Shown piece after piece: positions 2,138 to 39,210 of a stretch of DNA of 64,000 bases. Below the pieces are notes generated by a model. That model was not told the DNA's origin and searched no databases. It was given only the letters and a program-made list of their open reading frames with translations. Location: the NCBI GenBank assembly GCA_032622095.1, contig CP136062.1, positions 15,653,710 through 15,717,709 of the forward strand. Direction: 5' to 3'. The DNA is from Siphonodentalium dalli. Its lineage: Eukaryota; Mollusca; Scaphopoda; Gadilida; Siphonodentaliidae. The position numbers were made by a program, and so were the translations under genes. The stretch's first letter is position 1. Each line of letters opens with the position of its first letter.

Positions 2138-2401
2138 TCAAAATTTTTCTCCTCTATGTTTTTCTCGTAAATGTGCTAACAGATCGGCATTGCGCACATA
2201 AGCGCTAACACAGTACGGGCACCGGAATCGATCATTTGTGTGAACACGCATGTGACTATTTAGTTCCCAGCTTGTGGCATACGGCTTGGAACAGACGGAG
2301 CAAGTGAAATCCTTGGGCTTATGTATGCGTTTATCGTGTAAGAGAACTGCATCCCTGCTCAAATAGTTCCGTCCACATATCGTGCACTTCCATCTCGGTC
2401 T
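2138..2401 (-). CDS. Terminal exon with three C2H2 zinc fingers (ZF-1)
   Basis: This exon encodes 87 residues and a TGA stop. It begins immediately after a TTTCTTCCAG acceptor (CTG at 2402-2404 on the plus strand) in phase 0, so the upstream ATG that could open the frame lies in intron sequence and is not used as the start. Finger 1 has C6, C9, H22, H27; finger 2 has C34, C37, H50, H54; finger 3 has C61, C64, H77, H82. All zinc ligands are present and the chain ends five residues after the last His. C2H2 fingers of this kind bind DNA in nuclear transcription factors; the target cannot be read from sequence. The exon and its intron flank resemble the exon at 3811-4077. It is the last of the series in transcription order. 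I infer an alternative 3' exon of a lola-like gene; a stand-alone retained fragment is the alternative. Confidence 0.85.
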   Translation of the reverse strand, partial: RPRWKCTICGRNYLSRDAVLLHDKRIHKPKDFTCSVCSKPYATSWELNSHMRVHTNDRFRCPYCVSAYVRNADLLAHLREKHRGEKF

Positions 2402-2498
2402 CTGGAAGAAATTAAACACAATGGGATGAGAAGTGCGCGGATAATCTAAGAGGTGGGCAGAGACTTCAAAAAGAGGGTGGGGATTCCAAAGTGGCTAT

Positions 2499-2525
2499 CT
2501 GGAAGAAATTAAACAAAATGGAGTG
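2499..2525 (-). other. Second acceptor-like copy without exon
   Basis: The minus strand repeats the intron end of the exon at 2138-2401 almost exactly (CTGGAAGAAATTAAACA on the plus strand, at 2402 and again at 2499), yet only intron-like sequence follows. It may be a decoy 3' splice site or the trace of a lost exon. Confidence 0.5.
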
Positions 2526-2531
2526 TTAATA

Positions 2532-2744
2532 CAGTAATGCCCTAAATAATCGACTCCTTAACCACAGCAGAATTATGGGTAAATTTTCAGGATTTAGTCG
2601 GAAATATGGCTTGTTGCAATTCATCGGAAAGCTCTCGCCGAGAGCTTTCCGATGAATGGCAATAAGCCATATTTCCGCCTAAATCCTGAAAAGTTACCCG
2701 TAATTCTGCTGTGGTTAAGGAGTCGATTATTTAGGGCATTACTG
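2532..2744. mobile_element. Family A MITE (pogo/Tigger-like), complete
   Basis: A near-perfect palindrome of about 213 bp has ends CAGTAATGCCCTAA and its complement, with TA directly outside both ends (2530-2531, 2745-2746). The arms meet at 2635-2642. It encodes no transposase, so it would depend on an autonomous relative. The TA target is independently supported by an empty-site comparison at 23474-23691. Confidence 0.85.
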
Positions 2745-3051
2745 TACTTCTTGTCCACGCTGGGGGCAGTTTGGAACTTTCCAACTGGTACCTCAAACTG
2801 TCCATGTGTTGGAAATTTCCAACCTGACACCGCCCCCCCCCCCCCCCCCCCCCCCCATAAGGTTGGGAAAGTTCCAACTGATGGCCATTTCAGACAAATT
2901 TGTTTGACCAAAAGTAGAAAAATATACCGATGTTGGCCCCACTAATTACTGGTTGGAAATTCCAACAATCTCATCATGTATGTGGTGTAATATTTCCAAA
3001 TAATGTGTCAGGGATGAAGTGATGATTGGGGGAGGGAATTCCTTCCATATT
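2745..3051. other. Non-coding stretch with a long C homopolymer
   Basis: Contains an uninterrupted run of about 26 C at 2830-2856, flanked by inverted GTTGGAA/TTCCAAC-like motifs. No gene is supported; the length of the C run may be inexact in the assembly. Confidence 0.55.
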
Positions 3052-3224
3052 CAGTAATGTCCTAAATAATCAACCCCTAAACCACAGCAGAATTATGGGT
3101 AATTTTTCAGGATTTAGTCGGAAATATGGCTTGTTGCCATTCTTTGGAAAGCTCTGTGAGTTCCGACTAAATCCTGAAAAATTACCAATAATTCTGCTGT
3201 GGTTAAGGAGTCGATTATTTATTG
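3052..3224. mobile_element. Family A MITE, truncated at right end
   Basis: Begins CAGTAATGTCCTAA, carries both arms, and ends in TTATTGTAC instead of the full terminal sequence. Confidence 0.75.
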
Positions 3225-3810
3225 TACACTTCCGTCTCGCATAAATAAGAGAATGCATTGGCACAGGGTTTTCACAAAAATTTAGGAAACTCCAGTCATG
3301 AAAGGGTTAACAAACACTGATTACCCAGTTAATCCATCTCTCCTTAGAGGAATCATTCCCAATCAAACTCAGTTTTTTGCTTTAACATTCAGTCGAAGGA
3401 TATATATTATGTTTGTGTGCGTTTTCACTCACATCAACGATTTTGAATGTGTGGTACTCACCAACCTCGGAACCACGTGATTCCCCACTGTGTTATCAGT
3501 GATCATTCATGCCTGTTTATCAGTGATTAACTCAAGACAAAGTCGAATGAAGGACTAAATTTTCACATTTAGTGGAGTCCTTGTTTTGTGATTTAAGAAA
3601 TGGCAGACCCCAATGTTTTTCAGCTTTTTGCCAATAATAGTTTTTAAATGTCACATTCTTCGAATCGGTGCAGGGAACAAAAAAGTTAAATATCAGTTAG
3701 TAAAATAAGGATACAATGTGGCTTTAATTTGATATCAAATTTCCACCAGGAAATATCACTCAACTCACAGGTATAAATTGCTTGTATCTCAAATAGCGAT
3801 TTGTGTTTCT
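3225..3810. other. Non-coding stretch
   Basis: No coding or RNA feature is supported. It holds one CACGTG-containing segment (3471-3490, ACCACGTGATTCCCCAC) that recurs in similar form near 38205 and 38650, so it is probably an old repeat end. Confidence 0.5.
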
Positions 3811-4077
3811 TCAAATTAAGTCTCTGTGCTTCTCACGCATGTGCCTGTTGAGTGATTGTCTCAACGGATATGTATTTTCGCAATGGGGACAAGAACAGTC
3901 TCGGCGGTTCGTGTGGCTAAGCATGTGCCTCGAGAGTTCCGATTGGACAGCGTAAGACTTATTACAAATCAAGCAACTAAATGCCTTCGAGCCGTGGAAC
4001 CGCCTCTTGTGCAAACAGAATGCTGAAATACTGGAGTACGCCCGGCCACACAGTGCACACTCCCATGATCTGAGAAT
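3811..4077 (-). CDS. Terminal exon with three C2H2 zinc fingers (ZF-2)
   Basis: An 88-residue exon follows a TTTAATTTTTTGCAG acceptor in phase 0 and ends at TGA. Ligands: finger 1 C7, C10, H23, H28; finger 2 C35, C38, H51, H55; finger 3 C63, C66, H79, H84. Finger 3 has Cys61 where most fingers have an aromatic residue two before the first ligand, a small oddity that should not break the fold. The intron end (AATTAAACAGAATGG on the plus strand, then a GAGAAGTG motif) matches that of the exon at 2138-2401, so the two are tandem duplicates whose finger sequences have since diverged, including the residues that would contact DNA. Confidence 0.85.
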   Translation of the reverse strand: MLRSWECALCGRAYSSISAFCLHKRRFHGSKAFSCLICNKSYAVQSELSRHMLSHTNRRDCSCPHCENTYPLRQSLNRHMREKHRDLI

Positions 4078-4165
4078 CTGCAAAAAATTAAACAGAATGG
4101 TGTGAGAAGTGGGTGGAGATCGCAAGCTGTGGGCGGAGACGTTTACATGGCATCTTTGTGCTATT

Positions 4166-4302
4166 TAAGAAATGAACGTAGTGGGTGCTGCGGTCGTTGG
4201 GGCACATTGTGTGAACCGCGATTCTCACTAAATGTGCCCCCAACGACCACAGTGCCGTAGTCCCTAATAATACACATAGCCACTACATGCATTTCTTTTA
4301 TT
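4166..4302. repeat. Imperfect inverted repeat
   Basis: CGGTCGTTGGGGCACAT faces ATGTGCCCCCAACGACC, with weaker outer arms (AAGAAATG / CATTTCTT). It is a foldback relic of unknown family. Confidence 0.6.
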
Positions 4303-4796
4303 TATATAGCCTTTTGATGATTTATTAACATAAAAAAGCTGAGTGTGTTCTTATTTCACAAAATCTGCCAGGAATTTGATACTAGCCCATACAGCACATT
4401 ACATCAGCCCAATATAAGATTTCCAAGCACTTAGAAATGATAATGTGATCTATATAAATAACTGGCTTCAGATGCAATTTAGCTGAACATTTCTGAACTA
4501 TTCTGCTGACCGCTTTTAGTAATTAGGTCAGATTAGATCAACATTTTGTGACATTGTGAACGTGCTATGGTCCGTGTGTTATTGAGGTAGGAAACGGGTG
4601 ACCCAATTGGCAGTAGACCAATCATCGAACAGGATTAAGTATAACACAGATGGGCTATGAAAATAGTAATATATATTGTGGACATATTTCAGTGAATAAA
4701 ACTGATCCATTAGTACCAAAATACTTTCTCCACTGGAAGAATATAACAATAAATTAGATTGTCGTAAATTCTGATCACATAGAAAGCCTGAGTTTA

Positions 4797-5240
4797 GTGT
4801 GTCTGTCATTTGTAGAATGAGGTCTCCAGAGGGTGAATTTAGTGACGCTATCCCACATAGCGGGCTAGCATCACCAAATTCACCTTCTGGAGACCTCATT
4901 CTACATGGTCTCATATGCTATGGGAGACATAGTCTCAGATTGAAGTTATCAAATGGTGAATATTGTGATGTACACCTATTGGGAAACTTGTTTTATGCAT
5001 TTTATCTTCTCCAAATTAGGTGATATAGAAAATTCCCAGAAGGGAAACAGTAACTAAAACAATGCTTGCAAATATGAGACTATAGATACTTCCCAGAAGA
5101 TGAGGCCTAAGCAGAATGAGGTCCCCAGAGGTGCATTTGGTGATGCTACCCCTGCTATGTGGGTTAGCATCACTAAATTCACCCTCTGGGGGACCTCAAT
5201 CTGCAAATAACAGACACACTAAACTCAGGCTTGTCACATA
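4797..5240. repeat. Two adjoining family B foldback copies
   Basis: 4797-4912 is a compact palindrome (TCTGTCATTTGTAGAATGAG facing its complement). 4913-5240 carries the longer internal part and a second palindromic end. Copies of the same family lie at 1695-2055 and 6113-6525. Confidence 0.65.
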
Positions 5241-5308
5241 GAACATGCCATTTCAAAGAACACGTCTGAACTATGCACAAATGTAAATATTTACTCCTTT
5301 ATTTGGGA

Positions 5309-5375
5309 TGTAATATTGGCCGATAAACATACATGTACCGTACATGTACTAGTATGTTTATCGGCCAATATTACA
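5309..5375. repeat. Perfect 24-bp-arm hairpin
   Basis: TGTAATATTGGCCGATAAAC and four further bases at 5309-5332 are matched exactly by the complement at 5352-5375. A short CATGTAC-rich loop separates the arms. Confidence 0.8.
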
Positions 5376-5449
5376 TGATGTACTGTAAGACAATGATTCC
5401 GCCAACAATATTCACTGTTTTCTGCCTACTTGGATATATAAATTATATG

Positions 5450-5850
5450 TGGAGCTCTGTGGTCCAGTGGTTAACATGTCGGAATTGTATTCGCTGTAAA
5501 CACAGCAATGCGAGTTCGTAGCTCATTGCTGGTCTGTTGTGAGTCTTCACACAGCAGTGGCTTGGCTGCTTTGAGCAACGTGCATTTGTCAGATTGTTCG
5601 CTGTGCAAATCCTGCGCAAAGTTGTGACCCTTGAGCAAGGTCGCTTGTACTGTGTCGGCTTCACACCACTCATGCATTAAACGAGTACCAGTCAGCTTGT
5701 CATACTGTTGAGTATCAGAGCATGTTCTGATCTGATGGTTCATTGGTTGGCTTGTATAAATGACTTGGGTAATATTGTTATGTTTAAAAGCATGTTACAG
5801 CAAGTAATTGGTTAATCGCTATATAAAACTGTCCTTGTTATTATTAAATT
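5450..5850 (+). mobile_element. tRNA-derived SINE
   Basis: The head has an A-box-like TGGTCCAGTGGTTAA and a weak B-box-like GAGTTCGTAGCTC. The 3' part ends with TAATCGCTATATAAAACTG and a TTATTATTA tail, typical of animal tRNA-derived SINEs. Its middle (GTTGTGACCCTTGAGCAAGG) is shared with the SINE at 11535-12420. Frames on the minus strand here are not genes. Confidence 0.65.
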
Positions 5851-6112
5851 AAAACAGCTTGGGCAAGATTATTTGCTACTCAGTTATGGACACATTAATT
5901 TAACTCTTACGGATACTAAATGGGTGGGCGGGTATTCCAAAGTGAGCAGAGTCTAAAGAGAGGTGGATCAAATGCAGTGAATATATTCTGCAAACAAAGT
6001 GCATGAGTACATAATTAAGCCATATTCAAACCAGAAGTTTGTCCGACATGTTTATGACGTCTTTTCTCTCAGGACAAAATATGACAATGGCACCTCAACG
6101 CAGGCCTTGAAA

Positions 6113-6525
6113 TAGTATGTCTGTCATTTGCAGAATGAGGTCCCCAGAGGGTGAATATAGTGATACTATCCCAAAAGCCACATTGCAGGCTAGCATCACC
6201 AAATTCACCCTCTGGGAGACCTCAATCTGCTTAGGCCTCATCTTCTGGGAAATATCTATAGTCTCAAATTAACATTGTTTTAGTTGCTTTTTCCATTCTG
6301 TTCAGTTTCTATATCCCCTAATTTGCAGAAGATAAAATGCATAATCAACTGGGGTACTTCAATCTGATCCGACATGTAGGTCTCCCATAGCAGTTGAGGT
6401 TTAAGCAGAATGAGGTTCCTAGATGATTAATTTGGTGATGCTAGCCCACCATGCGGGATAGCATCACTAAATTCACCCTCTGGGGACCTCATTCTGCAAT
6501 TGACAAACACACTATTTCAAGGCTT
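6113..6525. repeat. Family B foldback element, long copy
   Basis: Both ends carry AGAATGAGGT...GGTGAAT motifs in inverted arrangement, and the CTTCTGGGAAATATC / TTTGCAGAAGATAAAATGC core lies in reverse orientation relative to the copy at 1695-2055. Confidence 0.7.
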
Positions 6526-6805
6526 GAATATTTGGTATTTTCTCAAGGGTACCTGCAGTGATCTTCACACATGACATGAGTGGGGCACCACATCACTAAA
6601 TGACAACTCAACAACAAGACAGAGTCAGACAGACTTACATACAATTTATTCCTCCATCATCGGAGAAGTGATAAAAAAAAAAATACAATATCAAGTACTG
6701 GTGTTACATAAGATATATCATATTAACACGTTATGGATATAAGCATCAAGTGTCATCTGATCTATAAATCTGAATGTGTGTCTCTGACTCACTCTCTCTC
6801 TATGC

Positions 6806-7240
6806 ATGTTCCTCATAGCTGTCCACATTTCTGCACCGATTGCGATGAAATTTGGCAAGGATATGTATTTTGGCACTCCGGTAACATGGTCTGGGTCCCG
6901 TATCTGTACAATGCCCCGTTTTGTCATTATGTCATATCCACACAGGCAAACTGGTTTCTCGGGGACTAATGGGGGGAATCGCACTGAATTAAGGGCGTGT
7001 ATTTTGGCCCTCTGGGTAACGTGGGATGGGTCCGAACTCCGCCCGACATCCCCTTTTAACGTTATATCCATGCGAGAAAAACAGTTTTATGTCGACTACT
7101 AGCCCGATCGCACTGAAATTTAGTACGGGTGTGTATTTCGGCTCTTTGCGTAACATGGGACTGGCCCAGACTCCACCCGACATGACGTCATATCTGCAAG
7201 GGCAAAACTTTCTCGGGAACTAATGGCAGGTTCGCACTGA
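6806..7240. repeat. Degenerate ~130-bp tandem repeat, three units
   Basis: Motifs such as CGCACTGAAATT, GTGTATTT(T/C)GGC, GTAACATGG and TTCTCGGG(G/A)ACTAATGG recur three times. The overlapping frames on both strands are products of this repeat. It looks like the tandem core of a dispersed element. Confidence 0.6.
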
Positions 7241-7243
7241 AAT

Positions 7244-7364
7244 ATGAGTTTGACAGGAAGACTGCCTGTATTGGCCATGCCACCGCTGGATACGTAAATT
7301 TGTATACATATATGTACCACTGATGTATTGTATAAATGTGCAAATAAACATTCAAACATTTGGT
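7244..7364 (+). repeat. Retrotransposon-like 3' tail
   Basis: The last part (GTATAAATGTGCAAATAAAC and the following bases) is also found directly beside the stop codon of the exon at 38941-39210. It contains AATAAA and looks like the end of a non-LTR element, family not determined. Confidence 0.45.
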
Positions 7365-7412
7365 ATGGTTGTGAATTTCGGGCGACCGTAGATATGGGTG
7401 TGGCACCATTAA

Positions 7413-7782
7413 CCCTTTACCCAACAAACCGGCCAAAAACGCCCAAATAAAGCTTCCAACAGCCTAAAATATCTTCGGTCTGTCTCAATAACACCATACA
7501 AATATGGATATCATTGGAACCGTCTCCTTGACCACATTGTGATAGTTAGTTATGCCCTGTGCCAATGCATTCTCTTATATATGCGAGTCGACCATAGGTT
7601 GCCTCGCATATATAAGAGAATGCATTGGCCTAAAAAAATCATTTTTAACACTTTTTACCATGTATTCTTACATTCTTTAACAATTTTATAATTTTTTCTT
7701 ACATTTTTAAACAATTTTTATAATATTTTTCTACATTCTTTGACAATTTTATCAGCACAGGGCCGTTCTGTTGGGTAAAGGG
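7413..7782 (-). mobile_element. piggyBac-like MITE
   Basis: TTAA lies on both sides (7409-7412, 7783-7786) and the ends are CCCTTTACCCAACA and complement. It contains a ~68-bp palindrome built on GCCAATGCATTCTCTTATAT. Its orientation is opposite to the copies at 11795 and 24030. No transposase. Confidence 0.8.
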
Positions 7783-8437
7783 TTAACCATTTGAGCTTTG
7801 TATATTAGAGTTTGTTAGGTGGCATACATGTTTGTTTGATTGTGTCCATAATGATAATGGTATTTAAAATGTGCTTACACCTTTCCCTTGCAGGTTTCAC
7901 ATTTGAAAGCATTTTAGGGTAAATAATAAAATTAAATGAAGATATTCGACAATATTGTGTCACTAATGAATAGACATGTAACTTATATACTCATGATACA
8001 TATAAGTTTTTTCAGATAAACATGTATGAACAATAAATAAATGAAGGTTGTTGCATATAATTTATACGTAAGGCCAATAAAAAAGAAATTGCTTGATTTA
8101 CATCCCCACCCAAACCTATTTTAGTCCCCTCCTCAATTTGTTTTTATTTGGAAATCTTTTATGTAAACTTTTTCTCATGCCTTAACCATCAAATTACATT
8201 TCAATGACTCTATTTTGATCAAATTGGAAAATCCAAATCAACTTGTACTATATAAGATAGGATACTGCTTCAATATCAAGAACTGTCCATGACAATTTAT
8301 GTCAGGAAGAATAAAATATAAAAAATAAAATACACCCTCCTGCCCCATTATTCTGAAAGAGTTGGATGTAAATCTAGCAATTTATCTATTTGGGCCTAAG
8401 AATAAAGTTGTGTGCTGTCAATTTGGATGTACAATTC

Positions 8438-8612
8438 GTAGAGAGTAATCAATTGGTTTCAATGTTTACGTGACATTATTCACGAGGGGAGTCGAGCCTG
8501 GTAAAACCTGAGTGAGCTGAGCGAATGAGGGTTTTACCAATAGTTAATTAGTTAATTAACGTTAATTATGTCACGTAATAAACAAAACCAATTGACTATT
8601 CTGTTTATTACA
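8438..8612. repeat. Family D foldback element
   Basis: The arms read GAGAGTAATCAATTGGTTT and AAACCAATTGACTATTC, with inner TTACGTGACAT / TGTCACGTAA. A related copy lies at 21757-21940. Confidence 0.55.
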
Positions 8613-9152
8613 CACTTTCAACCACTAAAAGTCGCTAATTCTAAAGAGAAGATGTGATAAAAATTAAACACAGATCAGCTGATTCTCCCATTTTAACCCC
8701 AATGTACAGTTGCACATGCAGTTGTACGAATGGACACATAATTTAAATAATTGTGACGTAACGATTCAGATTGATCTCATTATTTTGATTCACTGTGGTG
8801 CGATTCATTTTTTAGTTTCGGAAATTACAGGATATTTTCTGTCAAAATTGTGTTTATTCTGACCGAACAAGCATGGCATTTGGAACAAGATATTGTGAAG
8901 ATTCTGATTATGTGCTGAACAGAAAAGAGCGTTCCGTGTTAGCGTTTTTTTCTTCACTTTTGTGCGAAAAATTTGAAACAGCTGAAAAATGACTGACCAC
9001 TGGTGACCATGGAAAATATTTTTCAGAGCATAAGACGCCAGCCAGTATAAAAAAAAATTGTGTATTTATCAACCTATATGTTATAGAGAATTAGGTAGCT
9101 TGAATGAGCCATGTCCATTTAATTTAAAGAAAATCTCTTGATTCTTCAAGCT

Positions 9153-9413
9153 TCAGTTGCTAACACAGTCCAAGTGACTGCTGCGAATGTGGTGCGTGAG
9201 ACTAATTTTCGATGAGTACTTCCGGTCGCATATCGTGCAGACGAACGGTTTATCATCGAGGTGTGTGTTCTGGTGGCGAACTCTCTCGAAGTTTGTTGCG
9301 AACGACTTGTGGCAGACTTCACAGCTGAACTGATGTGGTCGATGAAATCGCTTTAAATGTGCGGCGAACGCTTCCTTCCACTGATAAGTCCTCCCGCATT
9401 CAGCACAAAAGTT
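9153..9413 (-). CDS. Terminal exon with three C2H2 zinc fingers, no start codon (ZF-3)
   Basis: This exon was read directly by translating the minus strand. It has no ATG, GTG or TTG codon in frame, so start-codon-based ORF searches miss it. It encodes 86 residues after an acceptor ending CTCTCCACAG (CTG at 9414-9416 on the plus strand), phase 0, and stops at TGA (9153-9155). Finger 1: C3, C6, H19, H24. Finger 2: C31, C34, H47, H51. Finger 3: C59, C62, H75, H80. The finger 2-3 linker is LDDKPF, close to the canonical TGEKPF. The frame can only be used by splicing, which supports its being a true exon. Closest in layout to the exon at 12651-12917 (shared FATN motif in finger 2). Confidence 0.88.
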   Translation of the reverse strand, partial: NFCAECGRTYQWKEAFAAHLKRFHRPHQFSCEVCHKSFATNFERVRHQNTHLDDKPFVCTICDRKYSSKISLTHHIRSSHLDCVSN

Positions 9414-9482
9414 CTGTGGAGAGATAGGTTACAAGGGTGTAAATATGTTTTCCATAAGCCTCGATATGATAGTTTCAATATA

Positions 9483-9591
9483 CAGTAATGCCCTAAATAA
9501 TCGACTCCTTAACCACAGCAGAATTATGGGTGACTTTTCAGGATTTAGACGGAAATATGGCTTGCTGCCATTCATTGTAAAGCTCTCACTG
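9483..9591. mobile_element. Family A MITE, left half only
   Basis: One arm is present from CAGTAATGCCCTAA to the centre (AAAGCTCTCAC); the second arm is missing. Confidence 0.75.
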
Positions 9592-11697: not shown

Positions 11698-11794
11698 TTA
11701 GAGTGTTGGACTTGTAATGGTGTCAACGCAACGGCATGAGTTCGCACCCTCCTGGTGGACTATCGTCTCCACAACAATGGCTTGGCCGGATTAA

Positions 11795-12650: not shown

Positions 12651-12917
12651 TTAACATAATATGTTGCCCAGATGATGAATGGTTATGTGTTTGGATAATG
12701 ATTCTGACGAGCAGTAAGTTTTTCCACACAATTGACACTTGAAGGAATCGGTCGCGCCGTGAACACTCATGTGCCTCAGTCGTTCATAGTTTGTTGCGAA
12801 CGTCTTGGAACACACTGTGCATGCGTGCTCATGTAACTTGTGGAACCTCCGAAAGTGATTCTTGTAAGTTTCCTTTGTGTGGTAAATACGGCCGCACAGT
12901 CGACATTCTCTCGGTTT
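12651..12917 (-). CDS. Terminal exon with three C2H2 zinc fingers (ZF-4)
   Basis: An 88-residue exon follows a TTTTCCTTCAG acceptor (CTG at 12918-12920 on the plus strand) in phase 0. Finger 1: C5, C8, H21, H26. Finger 2: C33, C36, H49, H53, with the FATN motif also found in the exon at 9153-9413. Finger 3: C61, C64, H77 and H81 or H82. The TAA stop lies exactly in the TTAA edge of the transposon fragment ending at 12650, so the present C-terminus appears to have been set by that insertion, six residues after the last ligand. All fingers stay complete. Confidence 0.86.
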   Translation of the reverse strand, partial: KPRECRLCGRIYHTKETYKNHFRRFHKLHEHACTVCSKTFATNYERLRHMSVHGATDSFKCQLCGKTYCSSESLSKHITIHHLGNILC

Positions 12918-12944
12918 CTGAAGGAAAATGAGAAACAAGCTTTG

Positions 12945-16562: not shown

Positions 16563-17334
16563 TTACTTTCACAATTGCAAAACTTTATTATCGTCATTTG
16601 GTGATTTTAGATGAGCAGGTGATTTACACTTAACGTCCGCGATAGAAAGGTAAGACAATTTTAACTGTTCTTTGACATAAACCAGTATTATCCCTATCCA
16701 TTTCATGAGCTGGTTTAGGCAAGAGAATTTATATTTATTGTTTTACGGATTTGCCATACCAAATTTTTTTTTTTTTAAACTGAAAAACATAAAATTGTTA
16801 AAATATATTTTCCCGCTGACTATTAAAATTGACAAAGGAAATAAAATATTAAAGTTGTATTTTCTGTCAGAAAGAAGTGGAGCGACTCAGTCATGAACAT
16901 CAATAGAACATCGCAAAATGTCAACAATAGCCTGGAAAAGAACTGCGATGCGTTATAATTAAAGTACACAAAACGATATAAATGGGAACGACAACTCTGT
17001 ATGCTTCCGGTTAGCAACATATAAATAAATTGTTAAAATTATAAAATGTCAATTAAAACATGTCATGTATTAAAATGTCAACATCCTTTCTAGATAACCA
17101 CCTACCACCGGTACTTATATGTTCATATTTGTTCTATAAAGGGGAAGACTTTTTATCCAACTTCAATGTGGATATTTTTTTCTCCTTCCAAATTTTCCAA
17201 TGGGAATGAATAAAACAAATTGGTAAGCCCTATGTTATTTTATCCCTCCTCCGACACAATTTCTCCATAGAAAAATCTGTAAACCAAAAAATTAAAAAAC
17301 ACTGGCCTTACGTCGATGAACACTTGGAGCAGAC
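16563..17334. other. AT-rich non-coding stretch
   Basis: No gene, RNA or repeat recognised. Ends at the first unit of the 58-bp satellite. Confidence 0.5.
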
Positions 17335-19425
17335 TATAATGGACAGATCGTATGTATCCCAATAATCTGGTCGGCCACATTATGGTATATTCTATAACGG
17401 ACAGATCGTATGTATCCCAATAATCGGGTCGGCCACATTATGGTATATTCTATAATGGACAGATCGTATGTATCCCAATAATCTGGTCGGCCACATTATG
17501 GTATATTCTATAATGGACAGATCGTATGTATCCCAATAATCGGGTCGGCCACAGTATGGTATATTCTATAATGGACAGATCGTATGTATCCCAATAATCT
17601 GGTCGGCCACATTATGGTATATTCTATAATGGACAGATCGTATGTATCCCAATAATCTGGTCGGCCACAGTATGGTATATTCTATAACGGACAGATCGTA
17701 TGTATCCCAATAATCGGGTCGGCCACATTATGGTATATTCTATAAAGGACAGATCGTATGTATCCCAATAATCTGGTCAGCCACATTATGGTATATTCTA
17801 TAACGGACAGATCGTATGTATCCCAATAATCGGGTCGGCCACATTATGGTATATTCTATAAAGGACAGATCGTATGTATCCCAATAATCTGGTCAGCCAC
17901 ATTATGGTATATTCTATAACGGACAGATCGTATGTATCCCAATAATCGGGTCGGCCACATTATGGTATATTCTATAAAGGACAGATCGTATGTATCCCAA
18001 TAATCTGGTCAGCCACATTATGGTATATTCTATAACGGACAGATCGTATGTATCCCAATAATCTGGTCAGCCACATTATGGTATATTCTATAATGGACAG
18101 ATCGTATGTATCCCAATAATCTGGTCGGCCACATTATGGTATATTCTATAACGGACAGATCGTATGTATCCCAATAATCTGGTCAGCCACATTATGGTAT
18201 ATTCTATAATGGACAGATCGTATGTATCCCAATAATCGGGTCGGCCACATTATGGTATATTCTATAATGGACAGATCGTATGTATCCCAATAATCGGGTC
18301 GGCCACAGTATGGTATATTCTATAATGGACAGATCGTATGTATCCCAATAATCTGGTCGGCCACATTATGGTATATTCTATAATGGACAGATCATATGTA
18401 TCCCAATAATCTGGTCGGCCACATTATGGTATATTCTATAATGGACAGATCGTATGTATCCCAATAATCTGGTCGGCCACATTATGGTATATTCTATAAT
18501 GGACAGATCATATGTATCCCAATAATCTGGTCGGCCACATTATGGTATATTCTATAATGGACAGATCGTATGTATCCCAATAATCTGGTCGGCCACATTA
18601 TGGTATATTCTATAATGGACAGATCATATGTATCCCAATAATCTGGTCGGCCACATTATGGTATATTCTATAATGGACAGATCATATGTATCCCAATAAT
18701 CTGGTCGGCCACATTATGGTATATTCTATAATGGACAGATCGTATGTATCCCAATAATCGGGTCGGCCACATTATGGTATATTCTATAACGGACAGATCG
18801 TATGTATCCCAATAATCTGGTCAGCCACATTATGGTATATTCTATAATGGACAGATCGTATGTATCCCAATAATCGGGTCGGCCACATTATGGTATATTC
18901 TATAATGGACAGATCGTATGTATCCCAATAATCGGGTCAGCCACAGTATGGTATATTCTATAATGGACAGATCGTATGTATCCCAATAATCTGGTCGGCC
19001 ACATTATGGTATATTCTATAATGGACAGATCATATGTATCCCAATAATCTGGTCGGCCACATTATGGTATATTCTATAATGGACAGATCGTATGTATCCC
19101 AATAATCTGGTCGGCCACATTATGGTATATTCTATAATGGACAGATCGTATGTATCCCAATAATCTGGTCGGCCACATTATGGTATATTCTATAATGGAC
19201 AGATCGTACGTATCCCAATAATCTGGTCAGCCACATTATGGTATATTCTATAACGGACAGATCATATGTATCCCAATAATCTGGTCGGCCACATTATGGT
19301 ATATTCTATAATGGACAGATCGTATGTATCCCAATAATCGGGTCGGCCACATTATGGTATATTCTATAACGGACAGATCGTATGTATCCCAATAATCGGG
19401 TCGGCCACATTATGGTATATTCTAT
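17335..19425. repeat. 58-bp satellite, about 36 units
   Basis: Units contain GGACAGATCGTATGTATCCC, a variable ATC(T/G)GGTC(G/A)GCC and TTATGGTATATTC. Units are 58 bp long throughout, with recurrent single-base variants (T/C, T/G, G/A) that alternate in places and suggest multi-unit amplification. The right-most units lie inside the coding part of the zinc-finger exon at 19364-19657, whose reading frame uses the minus strand of the repeat. Confidence 0.93.
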
Positions 19426-19657
19426 TATGATCCTCTAATCTGAACTTTGAACTGTACTGCTTGTTGCATATGACACAACTGAACGGTTTGTTGGCAAGGT
19501 GGACGTTGAGGTGTCGCCGATACTCCCAGCCATGAGGGAATGTTTTCGAGCACACGCTACATCGATACTTGTGAGGTTGGTGGCGTCTCATGTTATGGGA
19601 TATTAGACTTCTCTGCTGGTAGTACCCCTGTCCGCAGATGTCACATCGATGTGGTCT
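19364..19657 (-). CDS. Terminal exon with three C2H2 zinc fingers, tail made of satellite (ZF-5)
   Basis: A 97-residue exon starts after a TTTTTCCCCAG acceptor in phase 0 and stops at TAG (19364-19366). Finger 1: C5, C8, H21, H26. Finger 2: C33, C36, H49, H53. Finger 3: C61, C64, H77, H82. From about residue 79 to the end the sequence is encoded by the 58-bp satellite: the codon of His82, the last zinc ligand (19412-19414), lies within the repeat unit, and the following 15 residues are translated satellite. Finger 1 is nearly identical to that of the exon at 23125-23418, and both exons have 97 codons before the stop, so they are a recent duplicate pair. Either the satellite grew from this exon's own 3' end, or it replaced the end and happened to keep the finger. 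Confidence 0.86.
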   Translation of the reverse strand, partial: RPHRCDICGQGYYQQRSLISHNMRRHQPHKYRCSVCSKTFPHGWEYRRHLNVHLANKPFSCVICNKQYSSKFRLEDHNRIYHNVADPIIGIHTICPL

Positions 19658-23124: not shown

Positions 23125-23418
23125 TCAACCAGCATCATAAGATGCCGACTGATCGTCCATTGATTGTCCCGGATGAGTCTGCCGAAAATGTTCTTCCATA
23201 GCATATTTGGAGCTATATTGCCTGCTGCAAATCAGGCACTTGAACGGTTTATAAATCATGTGAACATTTTGATGACGTTTGTATTCCCAGCTGAGGGGAA
23301 ACGTTTTATAGCAGGTTTCACACTTATACTTGTGAGGCTGGTGGCGTCTCATGTTATGGGATAAAAGGCTTCTCTGCTGGTAGTACCCCTGTCCGCAGAT
23401 GTCACATCGATGTGGTTT
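23125..23418 (-). CDS. Terminal exon with three C2H2 zinc fingers (ZF-6)
   Basis: A 97-residue exon follows the same TTTTTCCCCAG acceptor as its paralogue at 19364-19657, phase 0, and ends at TGA. Ligands: C5, C8, H21, H26; C33, C36, H49, H53; C61, C64, H77, H82. Finger 1 is almost unchanged from the paralogue while fingers 2 and 3 differ at many positions, so DNA specificity has probably moved mainly through those fingers. Its C-terminal tail after His82 is polar and acidic (PGQSMDDQSASYDAG) and owes nothing to the 58-bp satellite; it may preserve the older tail. The upstream intron flank is shared with the paralogue, apart from a MITE here and a foldback insertion there. Confidence 0.88.
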   Translation of the reverse strand, partial: KPHRCDICGQGYYQQRSLLSHNMRRHQPHKYKCETCYKTFPLSWEYKRHQNVHMIYKPFKCLICSRQYSSKYAMEEHFRQTHPGQSMDDQSASYDAG

Positions 23419-31100: not shown

Positions 31101-34100
31101 CCTCTATTGTTGACGCCGCCCGTACACACGCACACACGCACACACGGACGACGGACGACAAAGCCATGGCAATAGCTCAAACTTTACAAAGTAAAGTTGA
31201 GCTAATAAAAATACGACCTGTAGCCCGTGCTAAAGAATTTAGTCATACAAAGAGTAAAATCCAAGATGGCTGCTGGCGGCCATGTTTTTGGACCGAATGA
31301 CCCCAAAATTACTCGTTCCCATCTGCATGTCATTGTTAATATCCATGACAAATTTTGTGATGATCAGACTAAAGGTACGACCTGCAGCCCGTGCTAAAGA
31401 ATTTAGTCATACCAAGAGTAAAATCCAAGATGGCTGCTGGCGGCCATGATTTTTGGCCGAATGACCCCAAAATTACTCGTTCCCATCTGCATGTCATTGT
31501 TAATATCCATGACAAATTTTGTGATGATCAGACTAAAGGTACGACCTGCAGCCCGTGCTAAAGAATTTAGTCATACAAAGAGTAAAATCCAAGATGGCTG
31601 CTGGCGGCCATGTTTTTGGACCGAATAACCCCAAAATTACTCGTTCCCATCTACATGTCAATATTAACATCCATGACAAATTTCATGATGATCAGACAAA
31701 CAGTACGGCCTGTAGCCCGTGCTAATGGATTGAATTTTGAAATCAAAGATGGCTGCTGGCGGCCATGTTTTTTTTCCGTATGACCCCAAAATTAATCATT
31801 CTGGTCTAAATGTTGATGTCAACAGCTATGACAAATTTCATAATGATCCGACCAAAGGTACGACCTGTAGCCTGCATTGTTGACGCCTTACGTACACACG
31901 TACACACGCGCACACGTACACACGGATGACGGACGACAAAGCCATGGCAATAGCTCAAACTTTACAAAGTAAAGTTGAGCTAAAAATGACTCGTTCCCAT
32001 CTACATGTCATTGTTAACATCCATGACAAATTTTATGACGATCTGACTAAAGGTACGAGCTGTAGCCCGTGCTAAAGAATTTAGTCATACAAAGAGTAAA
32101 ATCCAAGATGGCTGCTGGCGGCCATGTTTTTTGGCCGAATGACCCCAAAATTACTCGTTCCCATCTATATGTCAATATTAATATCCATGACAAATTTCAT
32201 GATGATCAGACGAACAGTACGACATGTGGCCTGTGATAATGGATTAAATTTTGAAATCCAAGATGGCCACTGGCGGCCATGTTTTTTTATTCAAATGACC
32301 CCAAAATGACTCGTTCCCATCTATATTCCAATTTCAACAGCCATGACAAATTTTATGATGATCAGACTAAAGGTACGACATGTAGCCCGTGCTAAAGGAT
32401 TTAGTCATACAAAGAGTAAAATCAAAGATGGCTGCTGGCGGCCATATTTTTTGGCCGAATGACCCCAAAACGACTCGTTCCGATCTACATGTCATTATTA
32501 ACATTCATGACAAATTTCATGATGATCAGACGAACAGTACGACCTGTGGCCCGTGCTAATGGATTAAATTTTGAAATCCAAGATGGCCACTGGCGGCCAT
32601 GTTTTTTGTCCGAGTGACCCCAAAATGACTCGTTCCCATCTACATTCCAATTTCAACAGCCATGACAAATTTTATGATGATCAGACTAAAGGTACGACCT
32701 GTAGCCCGTGCTAAAGGATTTAGTCATACAAAGAGTAAAATCAAAGATGGCTGCAGGCGGCCATGTTTTTTGGCCGAATGACCCCAAAATGACTCGTTCC
32801 CATCTACATGTCATTATTAACATTCATGACAAATTTTATGATGATCAGACTAAAAGTAGGACCTGTAGCCCGTGCTAAAGGATTTAGTCATACAAAGAGT
32901 AAAATCCAAGATGGCTGCTGGCGACCATGTTTTTTGGCCGAATAACCCCAAAATTACTCGTTCCCATCTGCATGTCATTGTTAATATCCATGACAAATTT
33001 TGTGATGATCAGACTAAAGGTACGACCTGCAGCCCGTGCTAAAGAATTTAGTCATACAAAGAGTAAAATCCAAGATGGCTGCTGGCGGCCATGATTTTTG
33101 GCCGAATGACCCCAAAATTACTCGTTCCCATCTACATGTCAATATTATCATCCATGACAAATTTCATGATGATCAGACGAATAGTACGACCTGTGGCCCG
33201 TGCTAATGTATTAAATTTTGAAATCCAAGATGGCCGCTGGCGGCCATGTTTTTTGTCCGAGTACCCCCAAAATGACTCGTTCCCATCTACATTCCAATTT
33301 CAACAGCCATGACAAATTTTATGATGATCAGACTAAAGGTACGACCTGTAGCCCGTGCTAAAGGATTTAGTCATACAAAGAGTAAAATTCAAGATGGCTG
33401 CTGGCGGCCATGTTTTTTGGCCGAATGACCCCAAAATGACTCGTTCCCATCTACATGTCATTATTAACATTCTTGACAAATTTTATGATGATCAGAATAA
33501 AAATACGACATGTAGCCCGTGCTAAAGAATTTAGTCATACAAAGAGTAAAATCCAAGATGGCTGCTGGCGGCCATGTTTTTGGACCGAATGACCCCAAAA
33601 TTACTCGTTCCCATCTGCATGTCATTGTTAATATCCATGACAAATTTTGTGATGATCAGACTAAAGGTACGACCTGCAGCCCGTGCTAAAGAATTTAGTC
33701 ATACAAAGAGTAAAATCCAAGATGGCTGCTGGCGGCCATGATTTTTGGCCGAATGACCCCAAAATTACTCGTTCCCATCTACATGTCAATATTATCATCC
33801 ATGACAAATTTCATGATGATCAGACGAATAGTACGACCTGTGGCCCGTGCTAATGGATTAAATTTTGAAATCCAAGATGGCCGCTGGCGGCCATGTTTTT
33901 TGTCCGAGTGCCCCCAAAATGACTCGTTCCCATCTACATTCCAATTTCAACAGCCATGACAAATTTTATGATGATCAGACTAAAGGTACGACCTGTAGCC
34001 CGTGCTAAAGGATTTAGTCATACAAAGAGTAAAATTCAAGATGGCTGCTGGCGGGCATGTTTTTTGGCCGAATGACCCCAAAATGACTCGTTCCCATCTA

Positions 34101-34595
34101 CATGTCATTATTAACATTCTTGACAAATTTTATGATGATCAGAATAAAAATACGACCTGTAGCCCGTGCTAAAGAATTTAGTCATACAAAGAGTAAAATC
34201 CAAGATGGCTGCTGGCGGCCATGTTTTTGGACCGAATGACCCCAAAATTACTCGTTCCCATCTACATGTCAATATTAACATCCATGACAAATTTCATGAT
34301 GATCAGACAAACAGTACGGCCTGTAGCCCGTGCTAATGGATTGAATTTTGAAATCAAAGATGGCTGCTGGCGGCCATGTTTTTTTTCCGTATGACCCCAA
34401 AATTAATCATTCTGGTCTAAATGTTGATGTCAACAGCTATGACAAATTTCATAATGATCCGACCAAAGGTACGACCTGTAGCCTGCATTGTTGACGCCTT
34501 ACGTACACACGTACACACGCGCACACGTACACACGGACGACGGACGACAAAGCCATGGCAATAGCTCAAACTTTACAAAGTAAAGTTGAGCTAAA
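28190..34595 (+). repeat. ~165-bp tandem array, about 38 units, pearl/CvE-like
   Basis: Each unit holds AAGATGGC(T/C)GCTGGCGGCCA, GACCCCAAAATGACTCGTTCC, a CATGACAAATTTTATGATGA segment and ATCAGACTAAAGGTACGACC. Two alternating subtypes can be seen (TTTAGTCATACAAAGAGT versus TTAAATTTTGAAATCCAAGA). Three times (31110-31205, 31880-31985, 34490-34595) the cores run into a CACACG microsatellite, then CCATGGCAATAGCTC and a hairpin of ACTTTAC/GTAAAGT. Core repeats, microsatellite and hairpin tail match the published layout of bivalve pearl elements. Short plus-strand frames here are repeat by-products. Confidence 0.85.
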
Positions 34596-34733
34596 AAGTG
34601 ATATTGTACAGTCTGGAGTCCAATATGACTTTCGGGAGTCCAATATGACTTTTTCCAGGACTATCACGTGACGGCTTTTGCCCCAATCAGAAATAGTGTT
34701 AGTTAAGGGATGGATATTGGTATTTAATATTAA

Positions 34734-34926
34734 CCCTTTCAGTGCCAAGGTCAGATTTTTGTATCAACCCATATTTCCTTGATCATTTTTCAAATTTATT
34801 GATTATAATAAAATATACTCTAAGAGCTCTTTCCATCAATGTATCACATTATTATAATCAATAAAATTTGAAAAATGATCAAGGAAATATAGGTTGATAC
34901 AAAAATCGGACTTGGCACTGAAAGGG
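34734..34926. mobile_element. Palindromic TTAA-flanked MITE
   Basis: TTAA at 34730-34733 and 34927-34930, ends CCCTTTCAGTGCCAAG and complement; almost the whole 193 bp is one inverted repeat with arms of about 85 bp. Confidence 0.85.
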
Positions 34927-34930
34927 TTAA

Positions 34931-35704
34931 AACAAGCCGGCACAAAAGGTTGTAAAACAAATTTTATCATGAGAATGTTCATTTGCTGTAATGTTGCTAT
35001 GAGTGCACTTAAATTGATGTTAAACACTCCGGTGGGGGGTGATCAAATATAAATTGAAAATAATCGTGCTCAAAGTAGTTATTTTTACAAATATTAATCC
35101 AAATTGACAACACACACCGTCATTCTGATATATTAATTAAATCCAATGACTCTCGATGGCGAAATCATTTGTGTTTATCGCGGATAGTTGTATCCCGAAT
35201 CGAGATGTAAATATTTACAATTGAGCATGTGTTCTATGGAGTGGTATGGTCACTTTCTTTGAAATTTTCAGCTATGTTAGTAGAATGCTACATTATCCAG
35301 GTTGGCATAATGCCTGACTACTAACTAATCAGTTTCACACACCCGAATCAATTACATAATATGTCCTTAATTAGGATAATAGTTCAAATGAGGATGTTCC
35401 TGACCTGATGATGTACACATCAACAAGTATTTTTAGTGAGGGGTTTGATTTTGTTCACATATCATCTAACACTACCGTGGAGCACAAAATGTGGTCAACA
35501 ATTATCTGTGTTTTTTTAACACTTGGAAATAGATTATAAAGTCTTATGTGTGGCACCAAATGCATAAATGCATAATTATAACCAGTGTGGGCATGTGCAG
35601 AAGATATTTTTGGCTGATACACAATGCAATTAAGAACCCAATGTTGTTTTTGTCAAATCTGATGTGCTGCCTCTATGAGTCAAGGATAGGGTGGTTCTGC
35701 ATCA
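34931..35704. other. Non-coding stretch
   Basis: AT-rich sequence; no gene or known repeat recognised. Confidence 0.5.
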
Positions 35705-35914
35705 ATGTAATGCCCTTAATAATTGACTCCTTAACCACAGCAGAATTACAGGTAAATTTTCAGGATTTAGTCGGAAATATGGCTTGTTGCTATTCATCGG
35801 AAAACTCTGAGAGCTTTCCGATGAATGGCAACAAGCCATATTTCCGACTAAATCCTGAAAAGTTACCCATAATTCTGCTGTAGTTAAGGAGTCGATTATT
35901 TAGGGTCATTACTG
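35705..35914. mobile_element. Family A MITE
   Basis: A slightly damaged left tip (TGTAATGCCCTTAA) and an intact right tip followed by TA. It ends 19 bp downstream of the stop codon of the single-finger exon at 35934-36158. Confidence 0.78.
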
Positions 35915-35933
35915 TACAATTCTGGGGCTGTCT

Positions 35934-36158
35934 TCACAAGGAAGAATACAATATCTTCGCTTCATATATATCAAAAGGTTTGAGGTAGGTTTCTGTGTCA
36001 ACTATCTCAGATCGAGTAATCCCATGCTTGTTTTCTAGATGACGATATATATTTTTAGAGTAGCCAAATTTCACACCACATAATCGACAGCTGAAATGTT
36101 TCTCTTTTTTTCTCCCAACAAGCCAATTCTCATATTCGAGCTGAGTGTCCATCAAACT
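35934..36158 (-). CDS. Terminal exon with one C2H2 zinc finger (ZF-7)
   Basis: A 74-residue exon follows a TTTATCTTCAG acceptor (CTG at 36159-36161 on the plus strand), phase 0, ending at TGA. Unlike the other exons it has a 23-residue lead that is charged and basic near GRKKEKHF, one finger (C24, C27, H40, H45) and a 29-residue tail of mixed acidic and hydrophobic character with no further Cys pair. One finger rarely gives strong DNA specificity alone, so the product may depend on the basic lead, on partners or on the shared N-terminal part. The ATG at its third codon is not needed if it is spliced. It could instead be a shortened descendant of a three-finger exon. Confidence 0.72.
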   Translation of the reverse strand, partial: SLMDTQLEYENWLVGRKKEKHFSCRLCGVKFGYSKNIYRHLENKHGITRSEIVDTETYLKPFDIYEAKILYSSL

Positions 36159-36276
36159 CTGAAGATAAATGAAGTGGGGAAGAAATTAGATTTCTGGAAT
36201 CTCGGGATTGTTTGAAGCTCTTTATGAAATTATGATATTATATGTCAAACAAGATGAGTTTATCAAAATTTCTCTT

Positions 36277-36386
36277 ACTGAGATGTTTCCGATAAATGGC
36301 AACAAGCCATATTTCCGACTAAATCCGGAAAAAATTACCCATAATTCTGATGTGGTTAAGAAGTTGATTATTTTAGGGCATTACTG
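36277..36386. mobile_element. Family A MITE, right half
   Basis: From GAGATGTTTCCGATAAATGG to TTAGGGCATTACTG followed by TA. The left arm is absent. Confidence 0.75.
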
Positions 36387-37548
36387 TATGATGTCCATAA
36401 GTGCTTATTGGTGTAATTTCAATGGCAAATATGTACTTGGCAGCCATTTTGATAACACAGTGTCCCAAAAAAACAGTGGCTTCATGGTAGCTGGGGCTTT
36501 TGTAGAATAACTGAGCACTGTAAAAATGGGCAGACCCGAACCTGAATTAGAACTTGTTCTTTATTTTCATATGAGAAATCTGTATGCTGCATTCAAAAAC
36601 AAACATAACAATAACTAAAGGTATCACCCAGAAACCAAAATAATCATAAAATTATAAAGGTCAACAAGGACTATAACTCCGGTAAAAAAGCTACATGTAT
36701 GAGTGCTATGTGAAAAGATATTTTTGTTACATTTTTTCAAATAAAATTAGAGAAAGCTCGGACAACATTACGTTCACAGATGGACAAACTGATTCCACTA
36801 TAATATCACGCAACCCCCCCCCCCCCCCCATAACTTCATCACAAAAGTAGTCGCTGGGTTCATAAACATACTAATTAATCAGTGACCCCACCCCTACTTA
36901 AGAAACAAAATTAATATCCACTGACAGATTTGCACAATAAGATGTTTTTTTTAATTCTAAATAGATTAGATAGATATATAGTTTATTGGTCAGAATGCTC
37001 TTCAGATTAAATAATGTTACAAATATAGATATATATATATAGATATTGGCATCCTGCCAGGATTGACATGGCCTTTGTTTAAGGCCGTCTTCCTGTCAAC
37101 CCTCCAACGAATAGTATGTATGTGTGTCTTGCCGATAAGCATGTCGCTGGTATTGTGCATAGATTATTAATGTATGTCTTATGGTGTGCGAAAATTGATA
37201 TATTTAACTGCCGACTCCTGATAATTATCTTTTTGGATCAGACGTGTCATGTTAAGTTGTTTGGAACCGACAATTATATTATATATACCTTATAATATAT
37301 ATCGAGAGATGCAGGCACCCGCTTAACCGAATTGAATTTTATAAGAACAATGGTTATAGAATGAAGTGGTTATAATATGAAGTGGTTATAATATAAAGTT
37401 TTCTATGGACGTGGTTGTCGACATGAATTATTGTTTGAATGTTGTACATGATGGATATTTGAGGCTCACAATTTTGACAGTCGAAATCCGGCACAACCCC
37501 TAAAGATATCTTCATGAGTTGGGGAGTCCTTAATACATCTATTTTCAC
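36387..37548. other. Non-coding stretch
   Basis: A C homopolymer at 36816-36829, short TATATA microsatellites (37027-37045) and a weak retrotransposon-like piece (37060-37110). No gene supported. Confidence 0.5.
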
Positions 37549-37655
37549 GGAGTTTCATGTTTTGTCTTGATATACATGTACATGTATATATCGCCAGTTT
37601 GTCTCGTCTAGTAGCTGTGGTGACACTCTTCACATGGCAGAGTCAGATGTGAAAT
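37549..37655 (-). pseudogene. Deletion fossil of a zinc-finger exon
   Basis: The left part (GAGTTTCATGTTTTGTCTTGA, GTTTGTCTCGTCT) matches the 3' end of the exon at 37722-37981. The right part (GTGACACTCTTCACATGG, then TCAGATGTGAAAT) matches that exon's 5' end and acceptor. About 150 bp of finger sequence between them is missing. It therefore cannot encode a finger. It probably arose as a tandem duplicate of its neighbour and then lost its middle between short similar GTCTCGT/GTCTTGT sequences. Confidence 0.7.
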
Positions 37656-37721
37656 TAAAAAAACAAGAGGCCGATCACGATTGGCAGAAGCTTAACCTCA
37701 TTTTGAGGTCTTTATATATTT

Positions 37722-37981
37722 TCATTGAGTTTCATGTTTTGTCCTGATGTGCATCGCCAGGTTGGTCTCGTCTCGTATATGGTTTATTACAATACTCGCA
37801 GGCATAAGGCTTAAGCCCTGGAGTATGTGTGTAGATATGAGCATTCAGGTTACTCCGCTTCCCGAACGAGCCGATTACAGACATGACACGTGAAGTTTTT
37901 CGTGGAGTGATGATATGAGAAATGATCCAGATAACTCGCCCGGGTCTTGTATCTGCGGTGGCACTCTTCACATGTCAAAGT
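37722..37981 (-). pseudogene. Three-finger C2H2 exon broken by two frameshifts (ZF-8)
   Basis: Starts after a CCATTTCACTTCAG acceptor in phase 0. Finger 1 is intact (C4, C7, H20, H25). Finger 2 opens with C32 and C35, then one extra base near 37868-37873 throws the frame into TAG/TAA. Beyond it the next frame resumes a clear finger 2 (KRSNL...H...H) and the linker THTPGLKP. A second extra base near 37770-37775 interrupts finger 3, after which MHIRTKH and a stop at 37722-37724 can be read in the third frame. Total length is 260 bp, a multiple of three plus two. Sister to the intact exon at 38941-39210. As spliced it would give a one-finger truncated product. Sequencing error is possible but would have to occur twice. 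Confidence 0.8.
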
Positions 37982-38149
37982 CTGAAGTGAAATGGAAAAA
38001 AAAAAACTTATCAGACTTTGACATGAATAAGAGCATGGCCGCAAGAAAGAGAATGTGGCTAATCGACATGCCATGTTTGAGCTTCCAATTCATGATTTGG
38101 GAGAAAGGATAATATGACATAGTAAATATATAATAACACTGGTAGGACC

Positions 38150-38700
38150 ATGCGAGTGTTGGAATAATGCAAAACTACAATCTATCTAGGACCCACATTC
38201 ACGGTGGGGGAATCACGTGGTTTTGAGTGGATGAATATCAAGCATCCAAAATGGCCGAGGCGATCGCATACATGATCATAAATGAGGAAAAAGGTAATAC
38301 ACTAGGATAATGATATATTATATAGTATTTTGGCAGTTGCGAGCATATGCTGCCTATTTTTCTAACAAGCTGTATACCGCATTTGTATCCCAACTCACAG
38401 TTGTTTACTCTAACATTGTGAACAAAGTTGTCAGTCAAAAGATTCTCCTACATGTAGAAATATGGCGCATTCCACGAAACTTACGATTAGAAACTTTGGT
38501 CATAATGTTATAGAAAAATACTGAGTATTTCCGAACAAATAAGGTATCAACTTGTTTTAAAAATAAACTAGTATATCCTCTTAACAGTCATAATGTTATG
38601 TTTTGTGCCAGTTTCTCATATATTTGCACATTTTGAACTTGTTGTATTCTCGAAACCACGCTATTCCCCACGGTCACTGACATTTACAACATCAAAGTGT
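38150..38700. repeat. Region bounded by an inverted CACGTG-like segment
   Basis: GGGGGAATCACGTGGTTTTGAG (38207-38228) faces CTCGAAACCACGCTATTCCCC near 38643-38668. The arms are about 25 bp with mismatches. Weak frames in between are not supported as genes. Confidence 0.4.
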
Positions 38701-38879
38701 GAAATAGGAACAAGTACGGCACAGGGAAACCTGGATGATTCCACAAATGAACAGAATCAGTTTACAATTTATAAGAAGATTTCTCTTTGATAAACCCTTC
38801 AACGCTCATCCTTGTTGTGAATAGTCATTTTACACCTATGAATGCCATCTTAACTATACATGTAATGTTATATTACAGG

Positions 38880-38942
38880 GGTGGCAGGAAGATGGCATGT
38901 AAATTTGTATTGTATAAATGTGCAAATAAACATTCAAACATT
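38880..38942 (+). repeat. Retrotransposon-like tail abutting an exon
   Basis: TGTATTGTATAAATGTGCAA and the following AATAAACATTCAAACATT match 7325-7362. The shared sequence ends at the stop codon of the exon at 38941-39210. Confidence 0.55.
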
Positions 38943-39210
38943 AAACATCAAGCCCGGGGTGCTGAGTCCTAATGTGTGTCACTAGTTGGTTCGGGCGTGT
39001 ATATTGCTTTCCACATGTCTGACACACATGTTTGTAACACTTCAGCCCCGGGGTGTGGGTATATATGTGCTCCTTAAGGTTGCTTCGTTTCTTGAATGTC
39101 CGGTTACATATGTGACAAGTATAATCCCTCGGTGTGTGATGGTAGCTGAAGTGATCCATAAAACTCCCCCGGTTCTTGTAGGTACGCCCACATTCGTCAC
39201 ATGTCAAAGT
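38941..39210 (-). CDS. Terminal exon with three C2H2 zinc fingers (ZF-9)
   Basis: An 89-residue exon after an ATTATCTCGCTTCAG acceptor (CTG at 39211-39213 on the plus strand), phase 0, ending in TAA (38941-38943). Finger 1: C4, C7, H20, H25; finger 2: C32, C35, H48, H52; finger 3: C63, C66, H79, H84. The finger 2-3 linker is unusually long (THTPGLKCYKH), which spaces finger 3 away from a canonical tandem array. First in the series in transcription order (nearest to the presumed 5' end) and sister of the frameshifted exon at 37722-37981, with shared FSYHH and HIYTHTPGLK motifs. The stop codon touches a dispersed repeat end, so the tail may have been shortened. Confidence 0.86.
   Translation of the reverse strand, partial: TLTCDECGRTYKNRGSFMDHFSYHHTPRDYTCHICNRTFKKRSNLKEHIYTHTPGLKCYKHVCQTCGKQYTRPNQLVTHIRTQHPGLDV

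Follow-up and report, generated by a model that had tools for sequence, protein, structure and literature searches.

The window analysed here is a stretch of 64,000 nucleotides from the scaphopod mollusc Siphonodentalium dalli (C2:15653710-15717709, C2 being contig CP136062.1; the assembly comprises 2.23 Gb in nine contigs). It carries, on the minus strand, a series of short exons encoding C2H2 zinc fingers, each placed behind its own splice acceptor. We estimate a probability of about 80% for the following reading: these exons supply the variable 3' ends to a BTB zinc-finger gene whose constant part is assembled on another contig, C6, and which is one of a family represented by no fewer than eight loci of this layout; the copy present on C2 is a misplaced allele of the array on C6.

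Inspection of the open reading frames, combined with Pfam searches, identified seven intact exons between positions 2138 and 39210, all on the minus strand and each made up of three C2H2 fingers followed by a stop, in frames of 91-121 amino acids. They are located at 2138-2401 (acceptor TTCTTCCAG, stop TGA), 3811-4077, 9153-9413, 12651-12917, 19364-19657, 23125-23418 and 38941-39210. For all seven a CAG acceptor lies immediately 5' to the frame, the reading starts in phase 0 and the exon ends in its own stop, in agreement with a preliminary description of the window made from the sequence alone. A strand scan placed 23 of 23 canonical C2H2 matches on the minus strand. The same description had counted eight intact exons, and the eighth, at 35934-36158 on the minus strand, does show a phase-0 acceptor and a stop; it contains, however, one C2H2-like finger with a weak Pfam score (E 0.0067), and 5 bases and 3 amino acids distinguish it from its C6 counterpart, and because of these features it is probably a relic. 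Two broken exons had also been reported: one is found, frameshifted, at 37722-37990 on the minus strand, while the other had been given without coordinates, and the sole other trace is a possible decayed acceptor and exon start at 1312-1338 on the same strand, which matches the beginning of exon 2138 over 28 columns (E 1e-4). Exon 19364-19657 is overlapped by a 58-bp tandem array at 17334-19429 (36 copies, 96% matches), which covers its last 66 bases and its stop; the array may therefore have grown from the 3' end of the exon.

When exon 12651 was used to search the genome, the exons of the window were found again on C6, where they keep their order, run in opposite orientation and form part of a larger array. 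BTB exons located upstream of this array, on the same strand, were detected by a BTB search of the genome, and the common 5' part, expected by the preliminary description outside the window, was thus found on C6, with order, strand and phase all as required. It consists of a first exon carrying the ATG (C6:59658174-59658299, 126 nt), a BTB exon with a phase-2 donor (C6:59659702-59660342, 641 nt) and a linker exon leading from phase 2 to phase 0 (C6:59667090-59667534, 445 nt), for a total of 1212 nt, or 404 amino acids. When this constant part is joined computationally to window exon 2138, the frame is maintained and a 491-amino-acid protein results, with a single, terminal stop. When the constant exons of two C6 genes are joined, Pfam recognizes the BTB domain in both (PF00651, cut-off 20.5 bits), with 45.7 and 52.8 bits, the former score being that of the gene matching the window.

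The linker exon was identified on the basis of splicing phases. Among eight BTB exons from C4 and C6, six have donors of GTAAG- or GTGAG-type in phase 2, with the frame closing right after them, and the other two have less canonical GT sites, read by eye, in the same phase; a ninth BTB exon likewise has a phase-2 donor. As the finger exons start in phase 0, a bridging exon is needed. Comparison of two paralogous C4 loci revealed an exon with an acceptor in phase 2 and a donor in phase 0, and further relatives were detected at C6:198874393 and then, with the latter as query, at C6:167504353, C6:59667109 (E 6.5e-30) and C6:59496751, so that the linker is present at six loci in all; it includes a conserved stretch, RTMTPSLNQIRAQQSIKRSIQSSQSAARKARN. 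A tblastn comparison of one C4 locus against one C6 locus, run in search of the linker, listed repeats and zinc-finger exons only. The first coding exon was located at two loci; at the others, its pattern found no match in the 1.5-2 kb upstream. In the C6:198.88 gene, the region between the BTB and the finger exons contains, within C6:198849600-198869599, a long minisatellite that can be read as a repeated LADLAMMLVG peptide.

According to the gene model proposed here, the first, BTB and linker exons would encode a constant module of 404 amino acids, and the phase-0 donor of the linker would be joined in the transcript, in cis, to one of about 12 terminal exons, used in a mutually exclusive manner. 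Each terminal exon would supply a different three-finger end, predicted to bind DNA, together with its own stop. One BTB handle would in this way be paired with many putative DNA-reading heads, in a lola-like fashion, and the family would have grown by duplication of whole loci and by tandem duplication of exons.

The same organization was then evaluated across the genome; counts of exons and loci are lower bounds, the genome protein searches having scored at most 150 candidates. C4 and C6 carry at least eight loci in which a BTB exon is followed by zinc-finger exons of the type found in the window. From eight loci, copies on C2 and C7 included, 39 finger exons were read, all of which (39/39) start in phase 0. 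An acceptor-finding script blind to phase assigned 35 of 38 exons to phase 0, where one third would be expected by chance; its three exceptions (window exon 2138 and two others) and one exon that it missed have a phase-0 acceptor directly upstream, as determined by eye. Three canonical fingers are present in 33 of the 35 exons compared. In the C2H2 DNA-contact scheme the relevant residues occupy helix positions -1, 2, 3 and 6, and the sets of residues found there are all different in the 33 three-finger exons.

Placement of the exons relative to BTB exons was tested on 53 short-frame exon matches. The test drew on the complete set of 50 matches with E <=1e-9 from the search with exon 12651, while further exon matches, and 26 of 144 BTB matches, were picked by hand. 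Thirty-nine of the short-frame matches lie on C4 or C6, and each of these is preceded, no more than 220 kb upstream and on the same strand, by a BTB exon of this type; the remaining 14, without an upstream BTB exon, are on C2 (11) and on C7, C1 and C3 (one each). When the strand was flipped as a control, an upstream BTB exon was seen in 0 of the 53 cases. The two largest arrays among those listed contain 13 exons, one of them broken, and 9 exons. The 26 picked BTB exons, distributed over C4, C6, C7 and C8, match the domain model from about position 10-24 onwards, as if split at one place. On C1, C3, C5, C6, C8 and C9, at least six pairs of BTB matches with equal score occur on the same contig, 0.3-7 Mb apart, as would be expected of unpurged haplotype copies or of local duplications. 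Apart from the short array exons, C2H2 matches in long open frames are very numerous on C3 and C1.

Sequence relationships among the exons bear out the suggestion, made in the preliminary description, that the array expanded by tandem exon duplication: for 24 of 36 exons the nearest relative is found in the same locus, compared with a mean of 7.3 and a maximum of 17 after shuffling. Three tandem pairs had been proposed. Exons 19364 and 23125 are reciprocal best matches, the latter being a duplicate of the former, and exon 38941 forms a pair with the exon that corresponds to 37722 on C6, with 63% amino acid identity; exons 2138 and 3811 are only 45% identical, and the closest relative of 2138 among the 36 exons is at C2:15651432, to the left of the window. 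The ratio of non-synonymous to synonymous substitution rates (dN/dS) is uninformative for the pair 19364/23125, synonymous sites being saturated. Some nearest relatives belong to different loci, as is the case for exon 9153, which is paired with one from the neighbouring C6 gene. The overall pattern fits a duplication of loci followed by local duplication of exons.

A feature absent from the preliminary description is the near-identity between the window and the C6 array, of which the window is probably a misplaced allele. The two copies were compared over sampled pieces of a block of about 60 kb, and their identity is 94-98% around the exons, reaching 99% in other pieces. The match continues to the left of the window as far as about C2:15630815, which corresponds to C6:59787357-59788460 with 97-98% identity. 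The counterpart of the right end of the window, sought at the extrapolated position C6:59713000-59719000, gave short repeat-like matches only and was found near C6:59727800-59731234.

Six exons are intact in both copies. The encoded protein is identical for exons 3811, 9153 (C6:59755290, three synonymous changes), 12651 (C6:59751423, 100% amino acid identity) and 23125 (C6:59738812), while two amino acids differ both in exon 2138 (C6 copy near 59762459) and in exon 19364 (C6:59742904). Altogether the six exons show 15 changes between C2 and C6, 11 synonymous and 4 non-synonymous, which corresponds to a ratio of non-synonymous to synonymous differences per site (pN/pS) of 0.09 (Fisher p 1e-5) and indicates purifying selection. 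In the flanking sequences 127 of 3775 sites, summed, are different, about the synonymous rate.

The BTB exon and the linker of the C6 gene were also used as queries. The former detected itself and three more places on C6 and C4, with 68-70% identity, and the latter four places, all on C6; neither search found a match on C2. No BTB exon was found to the right of the window, where the preliminary description had suggested looking for one: the nearest C2 match listed lies about 29 Mb away, among 150 of 226 candidates scored, and the window itself ends in a scaffold gap followed by satellite DNA. A second piece of the C6 region is present elsewhere, as the surroundings of C6:59867000 are repeated on C7 with 96.7% identity; the pieces on C2 and C7 meet near C6:59.788 Mb, with a high-copy repeat within the overlap. 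The two copies of the array also differ in which exons are disrupted. In the tandem pair 37722/38941, corresponding to C6:59730570 and 59731788, the first exon is open on C6 and frameshifted on C2, and the second is intact on C2 and frameshifted on C6, which suggests that the repertoire of finger exons may vary between alleles. From these comparisons and from the scaffold gap that ends its contig, the C2 array is probably the second allele of the C6 array, put in a wrong scaffold, and the simplest account would be that a single second haplotype was broken and placed into two wrong scaffolds, C2 and C7.

Some observations weigh against this interpretation. In the 10 kb to the left of C2:15640199 no gap is present, and C2 is still colinear with C6 there. 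Concerning the gene model, the linker is separated from the array by 63 kb in the C6 gene, compared with 17 and 22 kb in two C4 genes, and exon 1 has been traced at two loci only, the linker at six. An AATAAA signal occurs within 1 kb of the stop for 4 of 8 window exons, a density not above background. Finally, 18 of the 26 listed BTB exons have no array among the matches searched, including one close by on C6 (C6:59348483); the BTB family may therefore be larger than the array loci, or use other ends.

The strongest alternative, although unlikely, is a true segmental duplication, in which the C6 array would have been copied to C2 while its 5' part was not, leaving an orphan either decaying or acting as a reservoir. 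The ungapped left side of the C2 block in the 10 kb read would favour it, as would the colinearity of C2 and C6 over about 60 kb at all places sampled and the disruption of exon 37722 on C2. The partner exon of the same pair is, however, broken on C6, and decay is therefore not confined to C2. In addition, if either copy had evolved without constraint after the split, the expected number of non-synonymous changes would be about 22, against 4 observed (probability of 4 or fewer, 3e-6; 0.0017 in a stricter conditional test), so that the C2 copy is not a long-dead orphan. The further piece of the region found on C7 also argues against a segmental duplication and fits scattered pieces of one haplotype.

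It is decidedly improbable that the zinc-finger exons are individual small genes, each with a separate promoter or 5' exon, and that the upstream BTB gene is unrelated. The exons are far apart, neighbours in the placement list being separated by up to about 90 kb, as separate genes might be. Phase and strand led us to reject this explanation: the frames open at a phase-0 acceptor in 39 of 39 exons, the same phase as the linker donor, and BTB and finger exons share one strand in every one of the 39 C4 and C6 cases listed.

Still less credit is given to the idea that C2 and C7 truly carry arrays of their own, apart from the C6 constant part, and that these are kept under selection through interchromosomal trans-splicing from C6 transcripts. 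If this were true, zinc-finger ends would be drawn from dispersed banks of exons, with different exons intact in each bank (37722 on C6, 38941 on C2). Least probable of all, and rejected on frame length, is that the window exons are pieces of the long C2H2 genes common elsewhere in the genome: many C2H2 matches do fall on C3 and C1, a few of them also in short frames, but of the 50 matches with E <=1e-9 to exon 12651, 42 are of array type, with 41 short frames and a single long one, and the other 8, on C1 or C3, all lie in frames of 282-1132 amino acids, and the window exons, rather than forming a single long frame, end after three fingers, each behind its own acceptor.

Among known BTB genes, lola and mod(mdg4) are the best-known cases of a BTB part common to many alternative ends. 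Fruitless and Broad-Complex are BTB genes with few alternative zinc-finger ends, and vertebrate ZBTB factors have a single finger set and are not known to have an array of interchangeable terminal exons. Such factors (ZBTB17, BCL6) combine a BTB N-terminus with a C2H2 C-terminus, as would the protein predicted here from the in-frame join.

The kinship with lola was evaluated on the BTB domain. The closest PDB matches of the domain found here are ZBTB17, KLHL26 and BACH1, with ZBTB17 nearest by sequence, whereas the TTK structure 8rc6 is matched with E 1e-4 over residues 41-115 only. A TTK probe, consisting of a fragment, revealed no convincing TTK-type BTB in the genome: four matches were obtained among 40 candidates scored, the best with E 1e-5 and 40% identity over 50 residues; another reaches 46% over 37 residues, and none starts before residue 6 of the probe. 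This outcome speaks weakly against an arthropod; a search for mollusc haemocyanin (PF14830) gave no hit either, a result that does not demonstrate absence. Since the TTK-type BTB, the mark of lola, was tested for and not found, the family is not assigned to lola, and the counterpart by descent considered in the preliminary description is not upheld. The features shared with lola are those of layout, namely constant BTB exons upstream on the same strand and many terminal C2H2 exons in one phase.

In PMC11426971, the TTK-type BTB is described as specific to Arthropoda, with none in the databases of Annelida, Mollusca and other phyla, and the BTB of Broad-Complex is assigned to this type. The same paper reports zinc fingers in 17 of 20 lola isoforms, trans-splicing as a source of isoforms at lola and mod(mdg4), and, for the latter, at least 30 isoforms, which carry mostly FLYWCH domains and a TTK-type BTB (PMC11426971). 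The locus described here resembles lola in combining one constant BTB part with many alternative C-terminal C2H2 ends, and differs from it in the kind of BTB, in the mostly uniform three-finger ends and in the presence of the layout at no fewer than eight loci; for lola, trans-splicing is reported as well (PMC11426971). Mod(mdg4) is likewise a BTB gene with many isoforms, but has mostly FLYWCH ends and a TTK-type BTB (PMC11426971), in contrast to the C2H2 triplets seen here.

The system would thus represent a lola-like layout built on a different kind of BTB and present in several gene copies. If so, at least eight non-TTK loci following the logic of lola would point to an independent origin, followed by multiplication. 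Should transcripts bear it out, the family would offer a natural comparison for the choice of one DNA-binding end among a dozen. Titles and abstract openings in the open-access literature yielded no earlier account of a lola-like locus outside arthropods, which is a weak negative.

Beyond the array, the right part of the window is occupied by repeated sequences. A scaffold gap of 100 N at 44430-44529 terminates the contig bearing the array, and a satellite with a 45-bp unit, in about 433 copies, fills the window from 44530 to its end at 64000. The open reading frames of the satellite at 45136-54015 were rejected as genes: the two tested matched no Pfam family, and the frames are long because the unit measures 45 bases. 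A 1.3-kb repeat at 42989-44308 adjoins the gap and was found at 20 other places, near full length and with 97-99% identity, among 40 candidates scored; judging from this pattern, it is probably a young mobile element. Within the array, between 28225 and 34483, a 164-bp satellite is present in two stretches and also shows periods of 319 and 483 bases.

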